Below, in pieces: positions 4,145-54,832 of a stretch of 64,000 nucleotides of DNA (position 1 is its first letter; each line of letters starts with the position of its first letter). Origin of the DNA: Streptomyces roseirectus (GTDB lineage Bacteria > Actinomycetota > Actinomycetes > Streptomycetales > Streptomycetaceae); assembly GCF_014489635.1 (NCBI RefSeq), contig NZ_CP060828.1, forward strand, positions 2,828,001-2,892,000, given 5' to 3'. The notes under the pieces were generated by a model. That model searched no databases. It was not told where the DNA came from and worked only from the letters and a program-made list of their open reading frames with translations. The position numbers and the translations under genes are program-made.

Positions 4145-5659
4145 TCAGCCCTCCGTCACACCCAGCTGCGCCAGGATCAGCTCCTTGACGCGTGCCGCGT
4201 CCGCCTGGCCCCGCGTCGCCTTCATGACGGCGCCGACCAGCGCGCCGGCCGCCGCGACCTTGCCGCCGCGGATCTTGTCGGCGATGCCGGGGTTGCCGGC
4301 GATGGCGTCCTCGACGGCCTTGGTGAGGGCGCCGTCGTCCGAGACGACCTTCAGGCCCCGCTTGTCGACGACCTCGTCCGGGGTGCCTTCGCCCGCGAGG
4401 ACGCCTTCGATGACCTGGCGGGCCAACTTGTCGTTCAGGTCACCCTTGGCGACGAGTTCGGAGACCCGGGCGACCTGCGCCGGGGTGATCGCCAGCTCGT
4501 CCAGGGAGACCTGGGCCTCGTTGGCGCTGCGCGCGAGTTCGCCCATCCACCACTTGCGGGCGGAGGCCGCGTCGGCGCCGGCGTCGATCGTCGCGACAAT
4601 CGGGTCCAGCGCGCCCGCGTTGAGGATCGCCTGCATGTCGGTGGCGGAGATGCCCCACTCGTCGAGCAGCCGGTTGCGGCGGGCCAGCGGCAACTCCGGG
4701 AGCCCGGCGCGCAGTTCCTCGACCCACTCGCGGGACGGGGCGACCGGCACGAGGTCGGGCTCCGGGAAGTACCGGTAGTCCTCGGCCTCCTCCTTCACGC
4801 GGCCCGAGGTCGTCGACCCGGTGTCCTCGTGGAAGTGGCGGGTCTCCTGGACGATCGTGCCGCCGCCGTTCAGGACGGCCGCGTGCCGCATGATCTCGAA
4901 GCGGGCCGCGCGCTCGACGGACCGCAGCGAGTTGACGTTCTTCGTCTCGCTGCGGGTGCCGAACTTCTCCCGGCCGTGCGGGCGCAGCGACAGGTTGACG
5001 TCGCAGCGCATCTGGCCCATCTCCATGCGGGCCTCGGAGACGCCGAGCGCCTTGATCAGCTCGCGCAGCTCACGGACGTAGGCGCGGGCGACCTCGGGGG
5101 CACGCTCGCCGGCGCCCTCGATCGGCTTGGTGACGATCTCGATGAGCGGGATGCCGGCCCGGTTGTAGTCGAGCAGGGAGTGGGACGCGCCGTGGATCCG
5201 GCCGGTGGCGCCGCCGACGTGCGTCGACTTGCCGGTGTCCTCCTCCATGTGGGCGCGCTCGATCTGCACGCGGAAGGTCTCGCCGTCCTCCAGTTGGACG
5301 TCCAGATAGCCGTTGAAGGCGATCGGCTCGTCGTACTGGGAGGTCTGGAAGTTCTTCGGCATGTCCGGATAGAAGTAGTTCTTCCGGGCGAAGCGGCACC
5401 ACTCGGCGATCTCGCAGTTCAGCGCGAGGCCGATCTTGATCGCGGACTCGACGCCGGTCGCGTTGACGACGGGCAGCGCACCGGGCAGGCCGAGGCAGAC
5501 CGGGCAGGTCTGGGTGTTCGCGTCCTGCCCGAGGGCGGTCGAACAGCCGCAGAACATCTTGGTCTTGGTGCCGAGTTCGACATGGACCTCAAGGCCCATG
5601 ACGGGGTCGTACGACGCGAGAGCGTCCTCGTACGACACCAGGTCGGTCGTGGTGGTCAC
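4145..5659 (-). CDS. gatB: aspartyl/glutamyl-tRNA(Asn/Gln) amidotransferase subunit B
   Basis: GatB binds misacylated Glu-tRNA(Gln) or Asp-tRNA(Asn), activates the acyl group with ATP and completes transamidation with ammonia supplied by GatA. The 504-residue length is standard. The catalytic cradle is visible from residue 18 ([37 protein letters not shown]), including the cysteine pairs that bind zinc and the [18 protein letters not shown] signature. The C-terminal helical and YqeY-like tail (about residues 360-504) contacts tRNA. The GTG at 5659 has GAGAGGGAAG upstream. It is the last gene of gatC-gatA-small protein-gatB, with 16 bases separating it from the small gene. Confidence 0.97.
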
Positions 5660-42802: not shown

Positions 42803-43401
42803 GTTACAGGGTGGCTGTTCCGCGAGCCGGGCCGGCGGCACCCGGCCGGACGGCCCGGACCCGGTTGTCGCCTTGCCGGCCCGGCCCGGAGCGGATCTTG
42901 TCCTCCGGCCCGGGGCTCGGCGCCGTCGGCCGTTCCCCGGCACCGGTGCCGGCCCCGGCAAGCGGTCCTCTTGCTCGGGGGCGCGGTTCCGTGGTCCGGT
43001 CTGTGGGCTGGGTGGCGGTCCGGCCGGCCGGGGCTTGCGCTCGGGGCGGTGGGGCGTTCCGGGTCGGTTCCGGGCCGGGGGTGGGGGTCTGTCCGCGCGG
43101 GCTCTTGGGCTGGGGCGGGGCTTCGTCCAGTTCGGTCCGGCGTCGGCGTCGGCCGGTCGTGCCTGGGCGGCGTGGGGAGCCGGCTTCTCGGGGCCGGGTG
43201 AGGGGTGGGGGCTGTGGGGCTTTTATGCTGGGTGCGGGGTGGTTTCGTATCTTCCGTCCTGGTCCGGGGGCTGGTTCGCCGGCCAGTTGCTCGGATCGCT
43301 TCATGTCCGTACCCGGTGCCGCTCGCGTGCCGGGTTGAGCAGGTTGTTTCCCGGTGGGGCGCTCGATGGCGCGTGCCTCGCCCTTTCTGGTTGGAGTTCC
43401 C
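42803..43401. other. non-coding GC-rich region before sdaA
   Basis: About 600 bases hold no supported gene. The DNA is rich in GGCCGGG-type words, decaying from the tandem duplication, and becomes G/T-rich near 43200-43260. The sdaA promoter should be in the last 200 bases, but no clear hexamers or riboswitch are seen. Confidence 0.5.
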
Positions 43402-44769
43402 GTGGCCATCTCTGTGTTCGACCTCTTCTCGGTCGGCATCGGACCTTCGAGTTCCCACACGGTGGGCCCGATGCGGGCGGCGCGGATGTTCGCGCGGCGG
43501 CTGCGGAGCGAGGGACTGCTGGACTCGGTGACGGCGGTGCGGACGGAGCTGTACGGGTCGCTGGGGGCGACCGGTCACGGGCACGGGACGCCGAAGGCCG
43601 TCCTGCTGGGCCTGGAGGGCAACTCGCCGCGGACGGTGGACGTCGAGGGCGCGGACGACCGGGTCGAGGCGATCAAGTCGTCCGGTTCGCTGCGGCTGCT
43701 GGGCGAGCGGGAGATCGCGTTCTCGTTCGACGACGACCTGATCCTGCACCGGCGCAAGGCGCTTCCGTACCACGCGAACGGCATGACGATCTGGGCGTAC
43801 GACGCCGGGGGCGCCGAGGTGCTGTGCCGGACGTACTACTCGGTGGGCGGCGGTTTCGTCGTCGACGAGGAGGCGGTCGGCGCGGACCGCATCAAGCTGG
43901 ACGACACGGCCCTCAAGTACCCCTTCCGCACCGGTGACGAACTCCTGCGCCTCACCAAGGAGACGGGGCTGTCGATCTCCGCGCTGATGCTGGAGAACGA
44001 GCGCGCCTGGCGCACGGAGGACGAGATCCGCGCCGGGCTCCTGGACATCTGGCACGTCATGCGGGCGTGCGTGTCGCGGGGCATGTCCCGTGAGGGAATC
44101 CTCCCCGGGGGCCTGCGAGTTCGCCGACGTGCTGCCGTGACGGCCCGTCAACTCCGGGCGGAGGGCGATCCGTTGGCCCGCTCGATGGAGTGGATCACGC
44201 TGTACGCGATGGCGGTGAACGAGGAGAACGCGGCGGGCGGGCGCGTGGTGACGGCCCCCACGAACGGCGCCGCCGGCATCATCCCGGCCGTCCTGCACTA
44301 CTACATCAACTTCGTGCCCGGCGCCGACGAGGACGGCGTCGTCCGCTTCCTGCTCGCCGCCGGCGCCATCGGGATGCTGTTCAAGGAGAACGCGTCCATC
44401 TCCGGCGCCGAGGTCGGCTGCCAGGGCGAGGTCGGCTCCGCCTGTTCCATGGCCGCCGGCGCCCTCGCCGAAGTCCTAGGCGGCTCCCCTGAGCAGGTCG
44501 AGAACGCCGCCGAGATCGGCATGGAACACAACCTCGGCCTCACCTGCGACCCCGTCGGCGGGCTCGTCCAGATCCCCTGCATCGAACGCAACGGCATGGC
44601 CGCCGTCAAGGCCGTCACCGCCGCCCGCATGGCCATGCGCGGCGACGGCTCCCACAAGGTGTCCCTCGACAAGGTCATCAAGACCATGAAGGAGACGGGG
44701 GCCGACATGAGCGTCAAGTACAAGGAGACGGCGCGCGGCGGGCTGGCGGTCAACATCATCGAGTGCTGA
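43402..44769 (+). CDS. sdaA: L-serine ammonia-lyase (iron-sulfur type)
   Basis: SdaA converts L-serine to pyruvate and ammonia. The 455-residue single-chain enzyme begins [22 protein letters not shown] and carries the [4Fe-4S]-ligand cysteines in [15 protein letters not shown] (near residue 340) and [18 protein letters not shown] (near 380), plus [26 protein letters not shown]. The GTG at 43402 has TTGGAG upstream; extending to 43354 would add 16 codons without family similarity. It forms a serine/glycine catabolic group with the riboswitch operon upstream. Confidence 0.96.
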
Positions 44770-44838: not shown

Positions 44839-45540
44839 TCACGGTGTCCGGGGGAGGTCCGTGCCGAAGTAGCGGTCTCCGAAGTCGCCGATGCCCGGCA
44901 GCATGTAGGCGTTCTCGTTGAGCCGTTCCTCGATGGCGGAGGTCACGATGCGTACGCCGGGGTGGCGTTCGCGGACGGCGGTGATGCCTTCGGGGCAGGT
45001 GATGAAGGTGACGAAGACGATGTTCTGTTCCGGCACGCCCAGTTCGAGCAGGGTGCCGATGGCGGCCAGTGCGGTGCCGCCGGTGGCGAGCATGGGGTCG
45101 AGGAGGAGGACCTGGCGGGTGGCGATGTCCTCGGGGAAGGCCGTGTAGTAGAGGCTCGGCAGCTTGGTCGTCCTGTCGCGCTGGATGAGGATCTTGCCGA
45201 TCCTGATGCCGGGGACGACGGCGCGCAGTTCGGCCTCCATGCTCTCCCCGGCGCGCACGATCGGCACGCCGACCAGTTTGTCGGCGAAGCGCAGGCCCCG
45301 GTAGGTGCGGCCGACGGGGGTGGTGACGTCGTGCGGTTCGAACGGCAGGAGGTTCAGGGCCGCCTCGGTCAGCATGCGGATGATCCGGCCGGTGTAGAAG
45401 ACGAAGTCCTCGCGGCGGGCGTCGCGGTCCCGGACGATGGTGTGCAGGGCGCGCAACTGGTCGGTCTGCGGGAGGAGGTGGACCGCTTCGTCGAGACGGT
45501 GCGCGACCGCGGTCCCGGGCTGGGTGGTCAGGGTGGTCAT
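44839..45540 (-). CDS. upp: uracil phosphoribosyltransferase (cluster-associated, MinD-like)
   Basis: The 233-residue enzyme joins uracil and PRPP to UMP. It shows [26 protein letters not shown], the PRPP loop [18 protein letters not shown] (near residue 150) and the uracil-binding tail [21 protein letters not shown]. The ATG at 45540 has GAGGAG upstream. It is about 25 residues longer at the N-terminus than housekeeping Upp proteins. It ends the minus-strand cluster with the NRPS and C-glycosidase-like genes. In the published minimycin cluster the equivalent gene (minD) protects the producer by enlarging the UMP pool, and I infer the same job here. Confidence 0.93.
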
Positions 45541-45599
45541 CGAAGGCTCCTCGATGAGGGCGAGTCGTGAGGGCGGGTCGTGGAAGTGGGCGTGGGGCG

Positions 45600-47564
45600 T
45601 CAGTCGGCCGGGGGCTCGTCGAAGGTGGGGGGAAGTTCCGGCGTGGCGGTGAACTGACCCGCGGCGACGCGGTACACGGACCTGCCGCCCGAACGGAGCC
45701 ACAGTTCGCGCATCACGTAGACGAGCTTGGCGTTGTGCTCCTCGTCCTCCTCGACGGCGCGGGCGATGTGCCAGTCCCACTCGCGGGCCCAGCGCGGGTC
45801 GTCCACGTCGTCCAGGGCGGTCGAGAAGAGGTCGTCGATCGCCGCCAGCTTGGCGGGCGTCACGAAGTGGGCCCGGGAGAACAGCACGCCGAGGGCGCCG
45901 GTCCAGTAGCACGCGACGGCTCGCCCGCGTTCCTCGGCGGGCAGGGCGTCCGCGATGTGCCGCATGGCGTGCAGGGCGGTGAGCAGGTGGAGCAGGATGA
46001 AGTCGCCGGGTTCGGTCAGGTAGAGGACGGTGACGGCGTAGCCGAGCTGGTCCCAGCTGGCCTCGGGGTCCTGCGCGTCGACCCAGGACGGCGTCTCGTA
46101 CATCCGCGGGTGGCCCTCGCCGAGCATGCGGGCGATGCGGTACTGGAGTCCGGAGCGCAGCAGTTCCGGGTGGATGCCGTCGGTCGTGCCGTCGTACAGG
46201 CTCTCGATCGCGGCGCCGGTGCCGGGCCGCTCCTGCCAGTGGCGCGCGATGCGCAGGAGCGAGTCGAGGGGGCTGTCGGTGTTCGGCGCCGTCGAGGGCC
46301 GGGCCCGCTCGGGGTGGCAGTCGACGTAGGCGAAGGCCAGGTAGGCAAGGCCCTCGAGGGTCATCCGGCGGTTGCCCGCGTCCAGGCCCCAGCCCAGGTG
46401 GATGGTCGCATGCTGGAGTGCCCCGGCCCATCCGGCGAGCAGGCGCGGGACGTAGGTCCGCAGCAGGGCCGGCATCCCCAGTTCCTTCTCCCGCCGGTCG
46501 AAGAAGGCGCTGTAGGCGGCGAAGTCGCGGCGCTTGCCGAGGAGTTCGAGCCAGTTGCCCTCGTCGACGACGAGCTGCGGGGCCCGCGCCGGCTCCACCC
46601 GGCAGCCGTACGGCGTCAGGGCGATGTAGTTGTCGTGGAAGGCCACGATCCGCCGGGGGTCCACACCGAGGCCGTCGAGGGCGACGACCGCGTGTTTGAC
46701 GTGGTTGGTGAGGTGGCCGTTGAACTCGATGTGGTAGGTGGTGTCGTCGAGGAGATCGGTGACGGTGCGGTCGTCCGCCGGCAGGACACCGAGGATCTGC
46801 GTCACGGCCTGCGGGAAGGTGTCGGCGATGTGGGTCGGCGCCGCCGTCTCCAGCTGCGCCCGCTCGTGCACGCCGTAGGTGACCGCCACGGAGGCCATGC
46901 CGGCCGCCGCGGCCATCTTCAGGTCGTGGGTGGTGTCGCCGACCATGACGGCGTGCTCCGGCAGGGCGTCGTGCCGGCCGAGGATGAGCAGGCCCGACTC
47001 GGGGTGCGGCTTGGGGTGCGTGACGTCGTCGGCGCCGACCAGCGTGGTGATGTGGTCGCGCAGCCCCGCGGCGGTGAGCAGGGCGTCGGCGCTCGTGTGG
47101 AACTTGCTGGTGGCCACGGTCACCGTGATGCCCTGGCGGCGCAGTTCGGCAAGGCCCTCGGGGACGCCGGGGAAGACCAGGGAGCGGGCGCGGGGCAGGA
47201 CGACGGTGCGGAACGCCTCCTGGTAGCGGGCCACGCCCTCGGTGACCGAGGGGTCCTCCCGCTCCACGCCCAGCAGGTTCGCGAACGCCTGCTGGAGCGG
47301 GAGGCCGATGGTGGCGCGGACGTCCGCGGGGTCGGGGGGCGTGAGGCCCATCGCCTCGAAGGCGGCGGTGAACGCGTCCACGATCGCCCGGGGCGAGTCG
47401 ACGAGGGTGCCGTCGAGGTCGAACATCGCGACGCGGACGGGCGCGGTGCGCTGCCGGTCGGCCGGTGCCGCCGTGGGCGCGGGGGTCATCGTGGTCATCG
47501 TCGGGTTCTCCACCGTCGTCAAGTCGGTTGTCGTCAGGGTCCGTTCGGCCGGGGCGGCGCTCAT
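45600..47564 (-). CDS. indB: HAD phosphatase fused to DUF4243 (questin-oxidase-like) domain, IndB/MinC-like
   Basis: The 654-residue protein has a Thr/Ala-rich lead (1-42), then a HAD phosphatase domain (about 43-255) with the nucleophile in [11 protein letters not shown] (Asp49, Asp51) and motif [16 protein letters not shown]4243 domain (about 270-640) follows, opening [27 protein letters not shown] and containing [16 protein letters not shown]. In indigoidine/minimycin clusters the phosphatase half dephosphorylates a C-nucleoside 5'-phosphate, and the DUF4243 half, related to a fungal Baeyer-Villiger-type oxidase, is a good candidate for ring oxidation. The ATG at 47564 overlaps the upstream stop (ATGA), so translation is coupled. 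Confidence 0.9.
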
Positions 47565-48514
47565 CGGCCGTCCTCCCGCCGCAGCCGGGCGTGGGCCGCC
47601 GCGAGCCGGCCGCCGATCTCGGCGGTGTGGATGAGGACGGCCATGTTGGCGCGGGCGGAGCGGCCTTCGGTGGCCCGGTCCACCGCCCGCATGACGTACT
47701 TGGTGACGGCGCCGCCGCGCACCCCGTCCGCCTCCGCGCCGCGCAGGGCGTCGGCGATGGCCGCCTCGACGTCCTGGTCGTCGATGGCGTCCTCCGGCCG
47801 GGTCGGGCTGGTGATGAGGACGCCGCCGGGGTTGCCCAGCGCCCAGTGGGTGTCGACGGCGCGGGCGATGAGGGCCGGGTCGTCGAGGCGCTGGGGCGCG
47901 CGCAGTCCGCTGGAGCGGCAGTAGAAGGCGGGGAAGTCGTCCGACTCGTAGGCGATCACGGGGACGCAGTGGGTCTCCAGGAACTCCAGGGTCAGGCCGA
48001 GGTCGAGGATCTTCTTCGCGCCGGCGCAGACCACCGCGACCTTGGAGCGGGTGAACTGGATCAGGTCGGAGGAGACGTCCATGGTGGTCTCGGCGCCCCG
48101 GTGGACGCCGCCGATGCCGGCGGAGGAGAAGAAGGGGATGCCGGCGAGTTCCGCGGCGACCAGCGAGGAGGCGACGGTGGTGGCGCCGGCCTTGCCCGAG
48201 GCGAGGACGGCCGCGAGGTCCCGGCTGCTGACCTTCGGGATGCCGGGGGTACTGGCGAAGCGCTCGATGTCGCCGTCGGTCATCCCGATCAGGATGCGGC
48301 CGGCGTCGATGCCGATCGTGGCGGGCACGGCGCCGCCGGCCCGTACGGCGTCCTCCACCTTGCGGGCGGTGGCGGCGTTGTCGGGGTAGGGCAGGCCGTG
48401 GGTGATGACGTTCGACTCCAGGGCGACCACGGGGTCGCCGGCGGCGAGCGCGGTCGCCACCTCGTCGGTGAAGACCAGGGGCACCGAGGAGTGCCGGGGG
48501 GCGGGGATCGTCAT
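47561..48514 (-). CDS. indA: pseudouridine-5'-phosphate glycosidase-like C-glycosidase, IndA/MinB-like
   Basis: The 317-residue protein matches Psu[22 protein letters not shown] (near residue 30), [24 protein letters not shown], the catalytic lysine region [24 protein letters not shown] and [22 protein letters not shown]. PsuG reversibly joins uracil and ribose-5-phosphate through a C-C bond. In this cluster the enzyme is expected to act in the synthetic direction on the NRPS-derived pyridine to build a C-nucleoside phosphate. The ATG at 48514 has AAGGAC upstream. The gene lies 32 bases after the NRPS stop and overlaps the HAD gene by four bases. Confidence 0.93.
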
Positions 48515-48546
48515 GGGAGGGTCCTTACGGGAGAAGCGGGCGGCGG

Positions 48547-48771
48547 TCAGTAGTTGGGGGTCTTGCTCAGCAACTCCGGCCGGCCGACGATCTCCGGGAG
48601 GTAGACCCGCTCGTTCCACAGGTCCTGGGCGACGGGCTCGAGGGCGATGGAGACGACGCCCTCCTCGCAGCCGAAGGCGTTGCTCACGGCGGTGGTGACG
48701 GCGGCGACCAGCTCCCGCTCCTTCTCCTCGGTGATCGGCACCGGGAAGTGCTTGATGTTGATGTGCGGCAC
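48547..48771 (-). CDS. possible internally started free tautomerase (PptA-like)
   Basis: Within the NRPS frame, codon GTG at 48771 directly precedes CCG for the proline of [11 protein letters not shown], and an ideal GGAGG lies five bases upstream of that GTG. Initiation there would give a 74-residue protein that, after removal of Met, begins with Pro. 4-oxalocrotonate-tautomerase enzymes need exactly such a free N-terminal proline as catalytic base. The sequence also matches E. coli PptA along its length ([13 protein letters not shown], ending SKTPNY). Inside the fusion this proline would be an ordinary peptide-bonded residue. Internal initiation is inference. Confidence 0.45.
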
Positions 48772-51700
48772 GGTGGCCTCCGGGATCTGGATGCGGACGG
48801 ACAGGGTCGGCTCGGGGGACTCGGCGGCGGTCAGCCGGTCGGTGACGACCTTGGCGAGCTCGGCGACGTGCGGCTCGCGCAGGAGTTCGTAGTGGCCGGC
48901 CCGCAGGGGGTGGACGGCGGGCGGGTGGGCGGACCAGCCGTCCTCGCCCTCGATGAAGGAGTAGTTGTCGTCGGTGGCCTTGACCAGGGTCACGGGGGTG
49001 CGCAGCCGGCGTCCGCGCAGCTCGTGGAAGTCGTAGGTGAGGGAGTAGGTGCGCCGCACGATGTCGGTGACGGCGCGGACCAGGCCCTCGCCGAGGCCGG
49101 GGAAGTGCTCGGTGACGAAGGCGACGAAGCCGTCCTCGTCGCTGACGGTGTCCAGGCACCGGTCCAGGCGGGGGCCGGTGAGGGTGCCGGCGAACACGGA
49201 GAAGAGCAGGGCGAGGAAGGCGCGGTCGGTGAAGTCGGCGCGGCCGGTGGCGCCGGCGGCGTCCTCGGGCCGTAGCTGCGGCTGGCCGGGGGCCACCAGG
49301 AAGAGGTGTTCCACGCGCTCGCCCGCCTGCTCCAGCTGCCGGGCGGCCTCGAAGGCGACGCGGGCGCCGAAGGAGTATCCGCACAGCAGGTAGGGGCCGT
49401 GCGGCTGGATCTCCCGCAGGGCCGCGACGTCGGCGGCGGCCATGGCGGCGACGTCGTCGTAGGGGTGTTCGCCGGGGTTGATGCCGTGGGCCTGGATCCC
49501 GTAGACGGGCCGTTCGGTGCCCAGGGCCGCGGCCAGCGGGCGCAGGTTCATCGGGTAGCCGCCGAGGCCGGGCCAGCAGTACAGGGGGGTGCCCCGGCCC
49601 TCCGGCTGGAGCGGCACCAGGCGGGAGGCGGGCTGCGGTGCGGCGGCCTCCAGGCGGGCGGCGAGCTTCTCCACGGTGGGGGCCTCGAACAGGATCTGCA
49701 GCGGTATCCCGCCGCCGAAGTCCGCGTTGAGGCGGCTGACCAGGGCCACCGCGAGCAGCGAGTTGCCGCCCAGCTCGAAGAAGTCGTCGACGACGGAGAC
49801 CTGGTCCCGTTTGAGCACCGCCTGCCAGATGTCACGGATGCGGCGTTCCAGCGGCCCCCGGGGGGCGACGAAGGCGCGCCCGCCGACCGCCAGTTGGCTC
49901 TCCTGGGTGGCTTGCAGGGCCTTGAGGTCGATCTTGCCGTTGGCGGTCTGGGGCAGCCGGTCCAGGACGACGATCCGGTTGGGCAGCATGTAGCGGGGCA
50001 GCAGGCCGGCCAGGTCCTCCTTGATCAGTTCGGCCGGACCCTGCATGTGGACCACGTCCTCCTTCATGTCCTCGCCGCGCCACTGGGCGTCGCTGACCCG
50101 CCCGCCGACGCAGAAGTAGGAGGGGCCGGACGGCAGTCCGCAGTCGGCGAGGATGCGGCCCAGCCGCTTGGCGGACGGCAGGTCGTTGCCGGACTTGGAG
50201 CTGTAGCCCGAGGACATGAAGCCCAGGTGGAGGTCGTTCATCTGGAGGCGCTGGAGCGCGCGGCCCAGGTCGAGGTAGTGCCGCCAGGAGTCGGGGGCGG
50301 TGGCGACCATGCTGACGCCGAAGTCGGAACGCTCGTAGACCCGCTGGTTGATGGCGATGACGTGCTTCTTGAGGATCACGTCGTCGCTCACCCGGGTGAG
50401 ACCGGTACCGGTGTAGCGGTACTGGCCCGGCGGGAGGCCGTCGACCCGGTGGGAGTGCGTCTGGACGTAGAGGTCGAAGGCGTCGGCGTCACCGGTGGCG
50501 CCGGGCCCGGCCGCGCGCAGGTCGAAGCTGCCCAGGTAGTGGTCGTCCGGGGCGCAGTCGAGGCGGTCCTTGACGGCGGGCCGGTGGGCGGCGGCGGTAA
50601 TGCGCAGGCCGTGGGCCGGCAGCACCTCCTCGAAGAGGCCGACCATGTGGCCCGCCTCGATCTCCAGCACCTCGCGGATGTTGTTGCGGTAGACGGGTTC
50701 GATGGCGCCGTGCTTGCCGAGGAAGTGCAGCCGCGTGTGGCCGTCCGGGACCCGGGAATCGGCGTCGATGAGGACGAGCCGGTGGTGGAGCGGGTGGTAG
50801 TAGTGCAGGCCGGCCGGGATGTCGTTGCCCGCGCCGACCTCGACGTAGAGCTGCGTGGCGTACAGGGAGCCGGGTGAGGCGTAGGCGTACTTGGGCAGCA
50901 GCCGCTGGTCGCTGAGGTGGCTGCCGAAGTTCCGCAGGATGCGGCCGAGTTCGTCGCGGCCGATCAGGTCCGAGGTGCGGGCGGGCGGTTGTGGGCGGGT
51001 GCGCGGGCCGAGCAGCCGCAGGATGTCCTCCTGGCTGACCGCGGCGGCGCCCTCGTAGAAGCGGTAGGTCTTGCGGGAGAAGGCCAGGGCGCGCTGCTCG
51101 GGGGTGGCCTCGGCGCCGGGCAGGTCGAGTGCGGTGCGGCCGGCCAGGTCGGCCTCGTCGCGCAGGCCGGGGTGCGACAGCTGGGCCCTGACCTGGAGGC
51201 GGCTCTGTTTGGACTGGTGGTGGGAGCCGTGGTTGCCCTGGTCCATCAGGGCGGCTTCCTTCGGGTTGAGTTCGACGAAGGCGACGAGGTTCTGGAAGCC
51301 GGTGGTGGCGTCGTCGTGCAGCAGGACGGCGGCGGAGCGGACCCAGTCGTGGGCCTCGACGGTCTGGCGTATCTCGTCCAGCTCGACCCGGTAGCCGCGC
51401 AGCTTGACCTGGTTGTCGGCGCGGCCGACGAACTGGACGGTGCCGTCGGCGTTGAGGTGGGCGAGGTCGCCGGTGCGGTAGAGGCGGGCGCCGGGTGCCT
51501 TGGAGAAGCGGTCGGGCACGAACCGGTCGGCGGTCAGGTCCGGGCGTCCGAGGTAGCCGCGGGCCACCTGGGCGCCGCCGATGTGGAGTTCGCCGACCTC
51601 TCCGGCGGGGACCGGTTCGCCGTCCGCGTCGAGGATGTGCAGGGTGGTGTCGCGCACCGCGGTGCCGATCGGCATGACGAGCGGGCCGTCCGCGAGGGCG

Positions 51701-52677
51701 GCGGCGTCCACGGTGAAGGACGTGGCGTTGATGGTGCACTCGGTGGGGCCGTAGAGGTTGACCAGGCGGGCGTGCGGCATGGTGTCCAGGCACTGGGCGG
51801 CGAGGCCGCGGGACAGCGCCTCGCCGCCGCTGAAGATGCGGCGCAGGGTGTGGCAGGTGTCGAACTTCTCGGTGTCCAGGAGCGCCTGGAGCAGGGTGGG
51901 GACGCACTGGAGCGTGGTCACCGCGTGCCGCTCGATGGTGGCGATGATCGCCTCGGGGTCGCGGTAGATACCGGGAGCGCCCATCACGACGGTGCTGCCG
52001 CAGGCGGGGGCGAGCAGTTCCCACTGTGCGGCGTCGAAGCTCATCGGGGTTTTCTGCAGGATCCTCTCGTTCCCGTCGATGCCGCACTCGTCGTGCAGCC
52101 AGCGCAACTGGCCGACGATGCTGTGGTGTTCGATCATCACCCCCTTCGGTTTTCCGGTGCTGCCGGAGGTGTAGATGACGTATGCGAGGTCTCCCGGCTG
52201 GGTGCCGGGCTCCGGCGGGGCGGTCACCTGGGGGTACTGCTCGGCCGCCTCGAAGATGTCGTCGAGGGTGAGCGCGATGAGTCCGGCGGGCGCCAGTTCC
52301 CGTAGGGCGGGGCGCAGGGACTCCTGTGTGAGGGTGACGTCCACGCCGGCGTCCGACAGCATGTACGAGATCCGGTCCTCCGGGTATTCCGGGGACAGCG
52401 GCACATAGCTTCCGCCGGCCCAGAGGATTCCCCAGATCGCGGTCAGCAGGTCGAGCGAGGGCTCCATGAAGACGCCCACCCTGCTGTCCCGGTCCGCTCC
52501 TTCCTGCCGCAGCACGGCCCCCACCAGCTCGCTGCGCCGGACCAGCTCGGCGAACGTGAGGCTCTGCTCGTCGTGCACGGCGGCGATACGTCCGGGGGTG
52601 ATTCTCGCCTGTTCGCGGAGCAGGGCGGGGAGATCCGAGATCGCGCCACGAGAATCGGGGACGGTTTCTGTATTCAT
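48547..52677 (-). CDS. indC: indigoidine-synthetase-type NRPS (A-Ox-T-TE) with C-terminal tautomerase domain
   Basis: The 1376-residue enzyme activates L-glutamine, oxidises and cyclises it to an aminopyridinedione. The adenylation domain shows [11 protein letters not shown] (near residue 167), NLYGPTE and [19 protein letters not shown] (near 425). An FMN oxidase domain is inserted between A8 and A9/A10 (about 505-860, from [10 protein letters not shown] to YFCVGG). NGKIDL (near 914), a T domain with the phosphopantetheine Ser in ELGGNSLLA (near 973) and a TE with GYSFGAR (Ser near 1102) follow. BpsA stops here (about 1280 residues); this protein adds a PptA-like tautomerase domain (from Pro1304). 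The ATG at 52677 is preferred because AAGGA sits seven bases upstream; an ATG five codons earlier is the alternative. Confidence 0.93.
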
Positions 52678-52801
52678 GGGGATGTCCTTCATCCGCGTCT
52701 CTGAGTGAAAGCGCCCTTTTAAAGGGGAGTGGGGCGCTCCACTGAACTTTTCGTTCTTTTCTGGTGCGGTACTCCGGGAAATTCGCCCGCTGATTCGGGG
52801 G
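52678..52801 (-). promoter_or_regulatory. structured leader between the transporter and NRPS genes
   Basis: The 124-base gap is AT-richer than its surroundings and can fold in two exclusive ways. One uses CCCTTT-t-AAAGGG together with AGTGG/CCACT arms; the other pairs AGCGCCC (52710-52716) with GGGCGCT (52732-52738). The DNA may contain a separate NRPS promoter or a leader switch. No clear hexamers are seen. Confidence 0.35.
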
Positions 52802-54097
52802 TCAGCCGATTCGACGGTTCCGGCCGGCGGGAACGGCCGCCGCCATCTGCAGCAGGGTCAGCAGCAGGACGAACGCGATCGGCAGCCGCCAGCCGCCGGA
52901 ACGGTCGTAGAGGACCCCGACCAGGAGCGAGCCCGGGATGGACAGGGCGTAGCCGCGGCTCTGCACGAATCCGGACAGGCGGGCCGAGGAGGCGCTGTCC
53001 CGGCCGCGCATGCCGATCATCGCCAGGGCCAGCGGGAAGGAGCAGTTGGCGATGCCCAGCAGGATCGCCCAGAGCCAGGGCGTGACGGACGCGTCGACGA
53101 GGAGGCCGGTGAATCCGGCGAAGCCGCAGACGCCGGTCGCGACGGCGAGTCCGCTCTGGTGGCGCATGCGGTCGGCGGCGGCCGACACGGCGAACGACAG
53201 CGGTATGCCGAGCAGGGAGGAGACGGAGAACAGCAGCCCCGCGGCGCCGGCGGAGAGTCCGGCGTCCCGGTAGATCTGGGGCAGCCAGCCGATGATGATG
53301 TAGGCGACGCTGGCCTGGAGGCCGAAGTAGGCGGCGAGGGCCCGGGCCGTGGGGTCGCGCGAGAGCCGTGTCTCGACGGCGGGTGGCGGGACGGGGGAGC
53401 CTGGCGGGCTCGGTGTGCCTAGTGAGCCTGGCGGGCCGGCCGCCCCGCCGATGTGCCCGTCGGGCGGTCTTCGGGCCGCGAGGGTGAGCCAGGCCGGTAC
53501 GGCCAGCGCGGCCAGGACGGACCAGGTGGCGAGGCCGTAGCGCCAGTCGCCGCCGAACGCCTCCGTCAGGGGCGCCGTGAGCGCCGCCGCGGACGACGCG
53601 CCCACGTTGAGGGCCATCGAGTACAGGCCGGTCATCGTGCCCACCCGGTCGGGGAAGTACTGCTTCACGACCATCGGCAGCAGCACGTTGACCACGGCGA
53701 TGCCGGCCAGGGACAGCGCGGTGAAGACGAGGAACAGCACCGCGTCGAAGGCGAACGGCCTCAGCGCCAGCCCCACGGCCAGGACCGCGCCGGCGACCGC
53801 GATGGCGCTGCCCGCTCCGAAGCGGCGGGCCAGGAGCGGCGTGACCGAGCCGACCACCGCGAAGCACACCGCGGGGACGGCGGTCACCAGTCCGGTCATC
53901 GACCCGCTCATGTCGAGGCTGTCACTGACCTCCTCCAGCACCGGTCCGAGGCTGGTGACCCCCGGGCGGAGGTTGAGGGCGGCCAGCACCAGTGCCACCA
54001 CGGCCGCACGGCGCACGCCCCTCGATAAGCCGTCGCGGCCGACGCCGGGGACAGCTGTCGCTTCGTTGCCCTTACCTAAGGTCATAGACCCCATCAT
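52802..54097 (-). CDS. MFS exporter of the CynX/NimT type, MinT-like
   Basis: The 431-residue protein has 12 predicted helices: LVLAALNLRPGVTSLGPVLEEV in helix 1, GLVTAVPAVCFAVVGSVTPLLARRFG for helix 2 and the MFS loop, and TGLYSMALNVGASSAAALTAPL. A long Pro/Gly-rich central loop (PPGSLGTPSPPGSPVPPP, near residue 240) joins the halves. NimT/CynX relatives move small polar compounds. By position next to the NRPS gene it matches the exporter minT of the minimycin cluster, so export of the product is the likely role. Start codons at 54097, 54094 or 54085 are all possible; none has a strong ribosome-binding site. The promoter overlaps the GntR operator candidate. Confidence 0.85.
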   Translation of the reverse strand: MMGSMTLGKGNEATAVPGVGRDGLSRGVRRAAVVALVLAALNLRPGVTSLGPVLEEVSDSLDMSGSMTGLVTAVPAVCFAVVGSVTPLLARRFGAGSAIAVAGAVLAVGLALRPFAFDAVLFLVFTALSLAGIAVVNVLLPMVVKQYFPDRVGTMTGLYSMALNVGASSAAALTAPLTEAFGGDWRYGLATWSVLAALAVPAWLTLAARRPPDGHIGGAAGPPGSLGTPSPPGSPVPPPAVETRLSRDPTARALAAYFGLQASVAYIIIGWLPQIYRDAGLSAGAAGLLFSVSSLLGIPLSFAVSAAADRMRHQSGLAVATGVCGFAGFTGLLVDASVTPWLWAILLGIANCSFPLALAMIGMRGRDSASSARLSGFVQSRGYALSIPGSLLVGVLYDRSGGWRLPIAFVLLLTLLQMAAAVPAGRNRRIG

Positions 54098-54099
54098 AG

Positions 54100-54125
54100 A
54101 GTCATCCCATGACTGGATGTCCAGT
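54100..54125. promoter_or_regulatory. overlapping inverted repeats, candidate GntR operator
   Basis: AGTCAT-ccc-ATGACT (54100-54114) and ACTGGA-tg-TCCAGT (54112-54125) are both perfect and share ACT. They lie between the exporter start and the divergent GntR gene. A related half-site, GGATGACTGG, recurs at 54145-54154. This is the natural binding region for the adjacent regulator. Confidence 0.6.
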
Positions 54126-54178
54126 GATTTTTCGTAAAGTCGTAGGATGACTGGGGCTTCTGGCGTAGGGTGGGCGGC

Positions 54179-54832
54179 ATGAATATGGGCCCCGTCCGCC
54201 GTCAAGTCCTGGGCGACCTGGTGATCGCCAAGCTGCGCGATCAGATCACCTCAGGCGCCTGGCCCGTGGGGAGTCGCATCCCCACCGAGACCGAACTGGT
54301 CGAACAACTCGATGTCGCCCGCAACACCGTGCGCGAGGCCGTCAAAGCCCTGGCGCACACCGGGCTGCTGGACATCCGCCACGGTTCCGGCTCCTACGTC
54401 CAGGCCACCAGCGAGCTGGCCGGCATCATGCGCAACCGGTTCAAGGACGTCAGGACGGAGGACGTCGTCGAGGTCCGCAGCGCGCTGGAGGTCCGGGCCG
54501 CCAAGCTCGCCTGCCAGCACCGCACGGACGACGATCTGGCCCGGCTCGAAGGCGTCCTCCAGCAGCGGCAGGACGCGTGGACCGCCGGCGACCGGGTCGC
54601 CTTCGTCAACGCCGACGTCGCCTTCCACCTCGCCGTCGTCACCGCGTCCCGCAACACCGTGCTGGCCGGGCTCCACGCCGACCTCGGCGAGGTCATCCGC
54701 GACTCCCTCCTCGACCACTTCAGCGACACGCTGCACACCGAGCAGTTCCAGGATCATGCCGGGCTCGTCGACGCGATTCGTGACCGCGATATCGGCCGGG
54801 CGGTGCAGGAGGCGGCCTCCTACATGGACTGA
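54179..54832 (+). CDS. GntR-family regulator, FadR/FCD type
   Basis: The 217-residue protein has an N-terminal winged helix-turn-helix (GSRIPTETELVEQLDVARNTVREAVKALAHTGLLDIRHGSGSYV, residues 32-75). A helical FCD ligand-binding domain follows (about 90-210), with metal-site-like residues in VNADVAFHLAVV and DHAGLVDAIRDRD. FCD regulators respond to carboxylates or similar small molecules. Divergent from the exporter and NRPS operon, with inverted repeats in the gap, it is the probable pathway-specific switch. The ATG at 54179 is preferred over one three codons upstream (GGGTGGGCGG spacing). Confidence 0.88.
   Translation: MNMGPVRRQVLGDLVIAKLRDQITSGAWPVGSRIPTETELVEQLDVARNTVREAVKALAHTGLLDIRHGSGSYVQATSELAGIMRNRFKDVRTEDVVEVRSALEVRAAKLACQHRTDDDLARLEGVLQQRQDAWTAGDRVAFVNADVAFHLAVVTASRNTVLAGLHADLGEVIRDSLLDHFSDTLHTEQFQDHAGLVDAIRDRDIGRAVQEAASYMD

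Follow-up and report, generated by a model that had tools for sequence, protein, structure and literature searches.

A conserved start codon inside indigoidine/minimycin-type synthetase genes is predicted to yield a free tautomerase with an N-terminal proline

Fused genes that also give their C-terminal part as a separate protein, through an in-frame internal start, have been described before. In the lincomycin cluster of Streptomyces lincolnensis, lmbN contains an active internal start, as Western blots that included an early stop have shown (PMC4351081). The likeness to the locus described here is twofold: a fused gene of a Streptomyces biosynthetic cluster provides the C-terminal domain alone from an internal start, as is predicted for the present gene, and one of the fused parts, the carrier protein in the case of LmbN, is encoded by a different gene in a sister cluster. 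LmbN differs, in the available text of that paper, in that it joins a carrier protein to an isomerase rather than an NRPS to a tautomerase (Tau), involves no N-terminal catalytic residue and is called a recent fusion. The large-subunit gene cas8b likewise contains an internal in-frame start that gives rise to a separate small subunit, Cas11b, but this is a defense complex and the abstract mentions no requirement for a free N-terminal proline (PMC11899642). The synthetases of the IndC/MinA/BpsA type have the same A-Ox-T-TE-Tau order as the gene studied here and an IndA-like neighbor (PMC12766979, PMC8724604, PMC3992020); in the accessible parts of these sources, however, Tau is described as an NRPS domain or a separate gene, without mention of an internal start. 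Fused and discrete tautomerases in indigoidine clusters have already been published (PMC3992020, PMC12766979), a tautomerase gene, igiF, is listed in PMC5014874, a tautomerase motif appended to NRPSs such as indigoidine synthetase is noted in PMC5818174, and a review of the pathway draws Tau as an NRPS domain (PMC8724604). Our literature search found no description of an internal start in these NRPS genes in the available portions of the papers; the primary papers on minimycin and on S. chromofuscus IndC may mention one. As far as these sources extend, the fusion and the discrete forms are known, as is an active internal start in a different fused gene of Streptomyces, and the internal start in these NRPS genes is apparently new.

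The window, a 64,000-nucleotide stretch of the Streptomyces roseirectus genome, contains an NRPS gene of the indigoidine/minimycin synthetase type (Table 1). Over residues 19-1381 its product shares 46% identity with Arad_12458 of Rhizobium rhizogenes K84, which is annotated as an indigoidine synthase; the A-Ox-T-TE order that marks such synthetases is present (with A, T and TE recognized by Pfam), and the neighboring gene is IndA-like. The Ox region, approximately 400 residues between A and T, matched no significant family in a Pfam search and has weak similarity to the BmdC NRPS oxidase (E 0.0016). The full-length NRPS-tautomerase has a mass of 151 kDa. Where the tautomerase domain begins, the mRNA has the sequence GGAGG-CCACC-GTG-CCG, in the reading frame of the NRPS ORF (52692-48547), so that the placement of GGAGG, five bases, GTG and the proline codon given by the first-pass annotation is correct (48781-48766, minus strand, NRPS frame). 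A scan of 48400-49200 for promoters and terminators, by a method that covers Streptomyces promoters poorly, found none.

Table 1. Features of the synthetase gene and of the two genes downstream of it in the window
Feature	Positions	Strand	Basis or remarks
NRPS, indigoidine/minimycin synthetase type	48547..52692	-	ORF and translation, 1381 aa; Pfam AMP-binding, PP-binding, Thioesterase, Tautomerase
NRPS domains			residues: A 25-381; Ox-like region within 481-880; T 950-1014; TE from 1036; linker; tautomerase 1309-1381
GGAGG, internal Shine-Dalgarno (predicted)	48777..48781	-	sequence; conservation over fusions
Five-base spacer CCACC, GGAGG to GTG	48772..48776	-	sequence
Internal start codon GTG (predicted), Val 1308 of the NRPS	48769..48771	-	conserved NTG
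CCG, catalytic Pro codon	48766..48768	-	sequence
TGA stop, common to NRPS and tautomerase frame	48547..48549	-	sequence
Predicted separate CDS, PptA-like tautomerase, 73 aa, 8.1 kDa, N-terminal Pro once Met is removed	48547..48771	-	
IndA-like gene, PF04227	47561..48514	-	Pfam, 364 bits; next in operon; ATG start picked by eye
HAD phosphatase and Questin-oxidase-like fusion	45600..47564	-	Pfam PF13419 at 47-228, PF14027 at 286-618

The two genes downstream of the NRPS agree with the published description of the minimycin cluster, as far as the available text of PMC8724604 gives it. The ATG chosen for the IndA-like gene lies 32 nt past the tautomerase stop, and its product may have a MinB-like C-glycosidase role; the HAD/questin-oxidase fusion is probably MinC-like, to judge by its architecture. 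Other genes surround this group. An MFS transporter domain is encoded immediately upstream of the NRPS (52802-54205, minus strand) and is a candidate exporter. Adjoining the HAD/questin-oxidase gene is an open frame (44839-46431, minus strand) with a uracil phosphoribosyltransferase domain at its residues 321-524, the real start of which must be further inside, and a single gene with serine dehydratase alpha and beta domains faces the cluster (43354-44769, plus strand).

The approximately 74 residues past the TE had been noted as a match to PptA-type tautomerases, and this assignment held at the level of the family. The isolated domain scores 28.5 bits against Pfam PF01361, above the cut-off of 22, and 68.6 bits against the NCBIfam PptA equivalog NF002324, below the curated cut-off of 83; judged by these profiles, the domain is PptA-like, not PptA itself. 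Its sequence matches the solved E. coli YdcE. An AF2 model of the 73-residue domain (pLDDT 96.5, order E-H-E-H) has 1gyj, YdcE, as its best solved match in Foldseek (TM 0.88), and its length lies within the 58-84 residues of the beta-alpha-beta fold of the superfamily. The window domain is thus a tautomerase by sequence and modeled fold. It shares with PptA/YdcE the fold and the proline at the head of the domain, but YdcE is a stand-alone protein, whereas the window domain is fused and falls below the PptA equivalog cut-off. The proline at the first position is invariant across 31 aligned sequences, as are H2, K6, L20, S40, W51, V55, E59, L67, K69, P71 and Y73. Characterized members of the superfamily use this proline as their N-terminus, and members without Pro-1 have also been reported, according to the accessible text of a superfamily review (PMC5818174).

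The first-pass annotation had proposed that internal translation within the NRPS frame could make an N-Pro tautomerase, and this receives support from an NTG conserved in 49 of 49 fusions with a Shine-Dalgarno (SD) sequence at a nearly fixed distance. From this conservation we consider it very probable that the start is real and selected, and that one gene yields both the 151-kDa NRPS-tautomerase and a free 8.1-kDa N-Pro tautomerase through internal initiation. Initiation at the NRPS start would produce the full A-Ox-T-TE-Tau synthetase, and ribosomes on the internal AGGAGG-type site would begin at the NTG right before the tautomerase proline. Methionine aminopeptidase would take off the fMet to leave a free N-terminal proline, the general base or acid of the tautomerase superfamily, which presumably acts in catalysis here as well; the window protein would then begin with PHINIK. 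The small protein may then tautomerize the glutamine-derived ring released by the TE, and the tautomerized ring could enter an IndA/MinB-type C-glycosylation branch or allow faster product formation.

To build the comparison set, tautomerases were searched for in 392 congeneric genomes, 297 from the family, 394 from the class and a further 297 from the family of G904; these samples overlap, and matches were found in 43, 31, 11 and 21 genomes, respectively. A GTDB contig scan gave 23 loci, and the plasmid search yielded 41 records, four of which were read; those left out include H6-H9, which also have an annotated NRPS under the match. The first 79 loci comprise 37 in-frame TE fusions, 37 with a same-strand TE upstream without in-frame fusion, and 5 without a nearby TE. 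A later set of 24 loci added 9 fusions, and the four plasmid loci are all fused. After L102, which lies on the same contig as L041, was dropped and near-copies were kept, 49 fusions remained, from Actinomycetota except for one from Cyanobacteriota and two from Alphaproteobacteria. From these, 27 representatives share less than 90% nucleotide identity (median pairwise identity 0.68 over all 36 aligned genes). Places outside the sequence-level set number 11 of 43 among congeneric genomes and 3 of 33 elsewhere in the searches (G383, also among the 11; G479; and the second G544 place). An Ox NRPS is present in nine of the 11, with open-frame lengths that differ between tautomerase and Ox, and from these lengths none of the nine looks fused; the remaining two are the weakest matches. 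One candidate fusion, L138, was rejected as discrete: although its open frame is long, the tautomerase and the TE are in different frames.

Immediately before the catalytic proline, the 49 fusions have ATG (25), GTG (20) or TTG (4). Comparison of homologous NRPSs had been put forward as a check on a conserved ribosome-binding site and valine codon; the site proved conserved (GG in 49/49), but valine did not, and it is the start codon itself that is kept. Among 1312 codon columns in the 27 representatives, six always contain a start codon. Five of these are invariant Met, and the sixth, before the proline, is the only one in which the residue varies (14 GTG, 10 ATG, 3 TTG). Were only the full-length protein made, Val, Met or Leu before the proline would be structural and the domain would work without a free N-terminus or as a non-catalytic module. 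The residue is hydrophobic throughout, V, M or L in all 49 fusions, and the reports of members without Pro-1 (PMC5818174, in its available text) lend this some plausibility. Hydrophobicity cannot, however, explain the missing GTC, which makes up 60% of Val codons in these genes (GTG, 36%), the missing CTG and CTC, which make up 92% of Leu codons, or the missing Ile codons. TTG accounts for just 3.4% of Leu codons, yet all 4 Leu cases at the start site among the 49 fusions are TTG, and Pro1 is invariant, in keeping with the use of proline as the N-terminus in the characterized members that the same review describes. We regard a purely full-length product as highly improbable.

The naive probability of the column pattern is 2e-11, a value that overstates independence, as the loci are related and include near-copies. 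Because relatedness makes such naive probabilities too small, clades were examined one by one. In clade A, the clade of the window (10 rows), the codon is GTG except for one ATG, and only 3 of 30 other GTG-majority columns are all-start; in clade B (9 fused rows) the corresponding number is only 1 of 34. Clade D has TTG throughout and no further TTG-majority column. Clade C has mostly ATG, and 11 of its 16 other ATG-majority columns are likewise all-start; since Met has one codon, ATG sites such as these are less informative.

Conservation extends to the ribosome-binding site. GG occurs at -10/-9 in 49/49 fusions, although the residues encoded over it vary in the 27 representatives (K/Q/E/P, then E/D/V/A). 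Of the 200 codon pairs with equal or greater variability, this site alone has an invariant GG. An SD match of at least 5 nt at a spacing of 4-10 precedes 45 of the 49 start sites, compared with 82 of the 2090 in-frame NTG codons elsewhere; the match is just 4 nt at the other 4 sites. In 22 of 27 genes the SD energy places the site among the top 5% of in-frame NTGs, with middling ranks for L042 and L085 (0.19 and 0.17). This energy is similar to that at the tautomerase starts of the 37 loci, L094 included, in which the upstream TE is not fused (-8.8 in fusions vs -8.6, p 0.40). Against synonymous recoding of the linker, SD strength gave no signal (0/27 at p <=0.05, Fisher p 0.60). As recoding yields equally strong sites, conservation of the SD runs through the choice of residues, and there may be a protein-level reason for the K/Q-E linkers. 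The case for the SD thus rests on its position, its rarity among NTG sites and the residue-independent GG. Taken together, these genes have the conserved in-frame start codon and SD expected of internal initiation, with the SD alone not above synonymous expectation.

The mRNA is also open at the start: within a gene, just 1% of the other in-frame NTGs are, on average, equally or more open. Compared with GC-matched windows, openness reaches p <=0.05 in 22/27 genes, two of them with only 7 and 10 control windows, and the shift relative to synonymous recoding is smaller (significant in 6/27, mean p 0.27). A free tautomerase could in principle arise by proteolysis between the linker and the proline, without internal initiation, and clade A has the kind of long stretch of uneven length, 42-54 residues from the column of window residue 1266 (the window-1266 column) to the start, that may be found in cleavable linkers. 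Proteolysis accounts for neither the start-codon nor the SD nucleotide conservation, and the two residues that precede the start codon are not constant (8 types at -1 and 7 at -2 in the 27 representatives); we consider it exceedingly improbable as the source of the free protein.

The history of the fusion bears on whether the internal start is still in use. In a tree of 60 NRPS cores, in which L094 is labeled unfused, the fusion label needs 8 changes, with a least number of 2 forced by starred branches and a mean of 19.1 for shuffled labels. All-fused clades are A (10 rows, support 100, starred), C (10 rows at support 85, with a starred group of nine at 99) and D (4 rows, support 100, starred); clade B consists of 9 fused rows and L094. 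The last (G082:C1) would be a fusion but for a frameshift, from an assembly error or true decay, in its TE at strand-corrected positions of about 4800-4816, with the tautomerase frame, SD and GTG intact; it is counted among the 37 non-fused loci and is absent from the 49. Without L094, 36 non-fused loci remain, in which the NRPS stop and the tautomerase start range from overlapping to being separated by a 268-nt gap, and discrete tautomerases, as separate downstream genes in related clusters, have equally strong SD sites. Overlaps are of 1 nt in L115, 13 nt in L112, L113 and L073, and 14 nt in L052. Those in L112, L113, L115 and L073 are out of frame, which is typical of translational coupling, and the layout is intermediate between separate genes and a fusion. 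L043 is discrete: a TGA in the tautomerase frame closes its NRPS, and 15 nt separate the end of this stop from the tautomerase start; on this arrangement of codons, the loss of one stop would yield the fused form with the start intact.

The NTG and SD could accordingly be a relic of a once separate tautomerase gene, left after recent stop losses, with internal initiation now dispensable. Non-fused loci are as common as fused ones (37/79, including the frameshifted L094), the number of label changes in the tree and the single in-frame TGA of L043 speak for it as well, and the authors of the lmbN study took its internal start as a sign of recent fusion (PMC4351081, in the text available). Against this, fourfold sites within clades A-D differ by a mean of 0.32-0.38, yet the codon stays NTG; GTG and ATG are both present in clades A, B and C, the sole GTG of clade C being in the row outside its starred group at 99, and the NTG set is never left. 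Two fusions on Rhizobium plasmids, with 72.6% nucleotide identity, both keep an internal ATG with CAGGAG or CGGGAG, and hence GGAG. A relic is therefore quite improbable, and a start that is still used remains our preferred reading. The fusion itself also appears to matter: the distance from the window-1266 column to the start varies in clade A, as given above, and from 30 to 40 residues in clade D with the frame kept, and because TE-Tau length changes stay in frame in all-fused clades, this suggests that the full-length protein is under selection as well.

The two Rhizobium loci, fused indigoidine synthase-tautomerases, are L146 5001-5222 (pAtK84c) and L147 5001-5222 (pTiK1_93). In the 5 kb downstream lie genes for a DMT transporter (the name given in L147), a cysteine synthase and a phosphopantetheinyl transferase as well as cysE; an IndA annotation is absent there. 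A further plasmid fusion is that of S. clavuligerus ATCC 27064, whose tautomerase match is at 1692767-1692988, plus strand, of plasmid NZ_CP027859, a reference for published ribosome profiling (PMC7210306; mapped reads said to be at ENA PRJEB36893). In NZ_CP045850.1, the record of this strain that was read, it starts with the internal ATG.

Among the 392 congeneric genomes searched, 41 of the 43 with a tautomerase relative also have an Ox NRPS domain, the two exceptions being the weakest matches, and 22 of 63 Ox-domain genomes are without a tautomerase relative at E 1e-3. From these numbers, the tautomerase accompanies the pathway and is not essential to every Ox NRPS. The NRPS alone is described as enough for the blue pigment (PMC3992020), and for minimycin Tau has been proposed to prepare the ring for C-glycosylation (PMC8724604), each in the available text. 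The pyridinedione-to-hydroxypyridone step suggested in the first-pass annotation would agree with the minimycin proposal. Given the IndA-like and MinC-like neighbors, preparation for C-glycosylation is the more likely role of Tau here. It is conceivable, though doubtful, that the two products co-assemble, with the tethered Tau, its proline blocked, serving to dock free N-Pro subunits that complete a dimer or hexamer. If so, an active tautomerase would be built onto the synthetase next to the TE.

Domain fusions seen in genomes may conceal separately translated subunits, and a simple screen suggests itself, for codon-alignment columns in which every codon is a start codon but the encoded residue is not constant. 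For this family, a conserved internal start would reconcile the need for a free N-terminal proline with a tautomerase fused to an NRPS. If this is true, the expression and engineering of these synthetases would change, as recoded genes, or hosts that do not read the internal start, could lose the active tautomerase.
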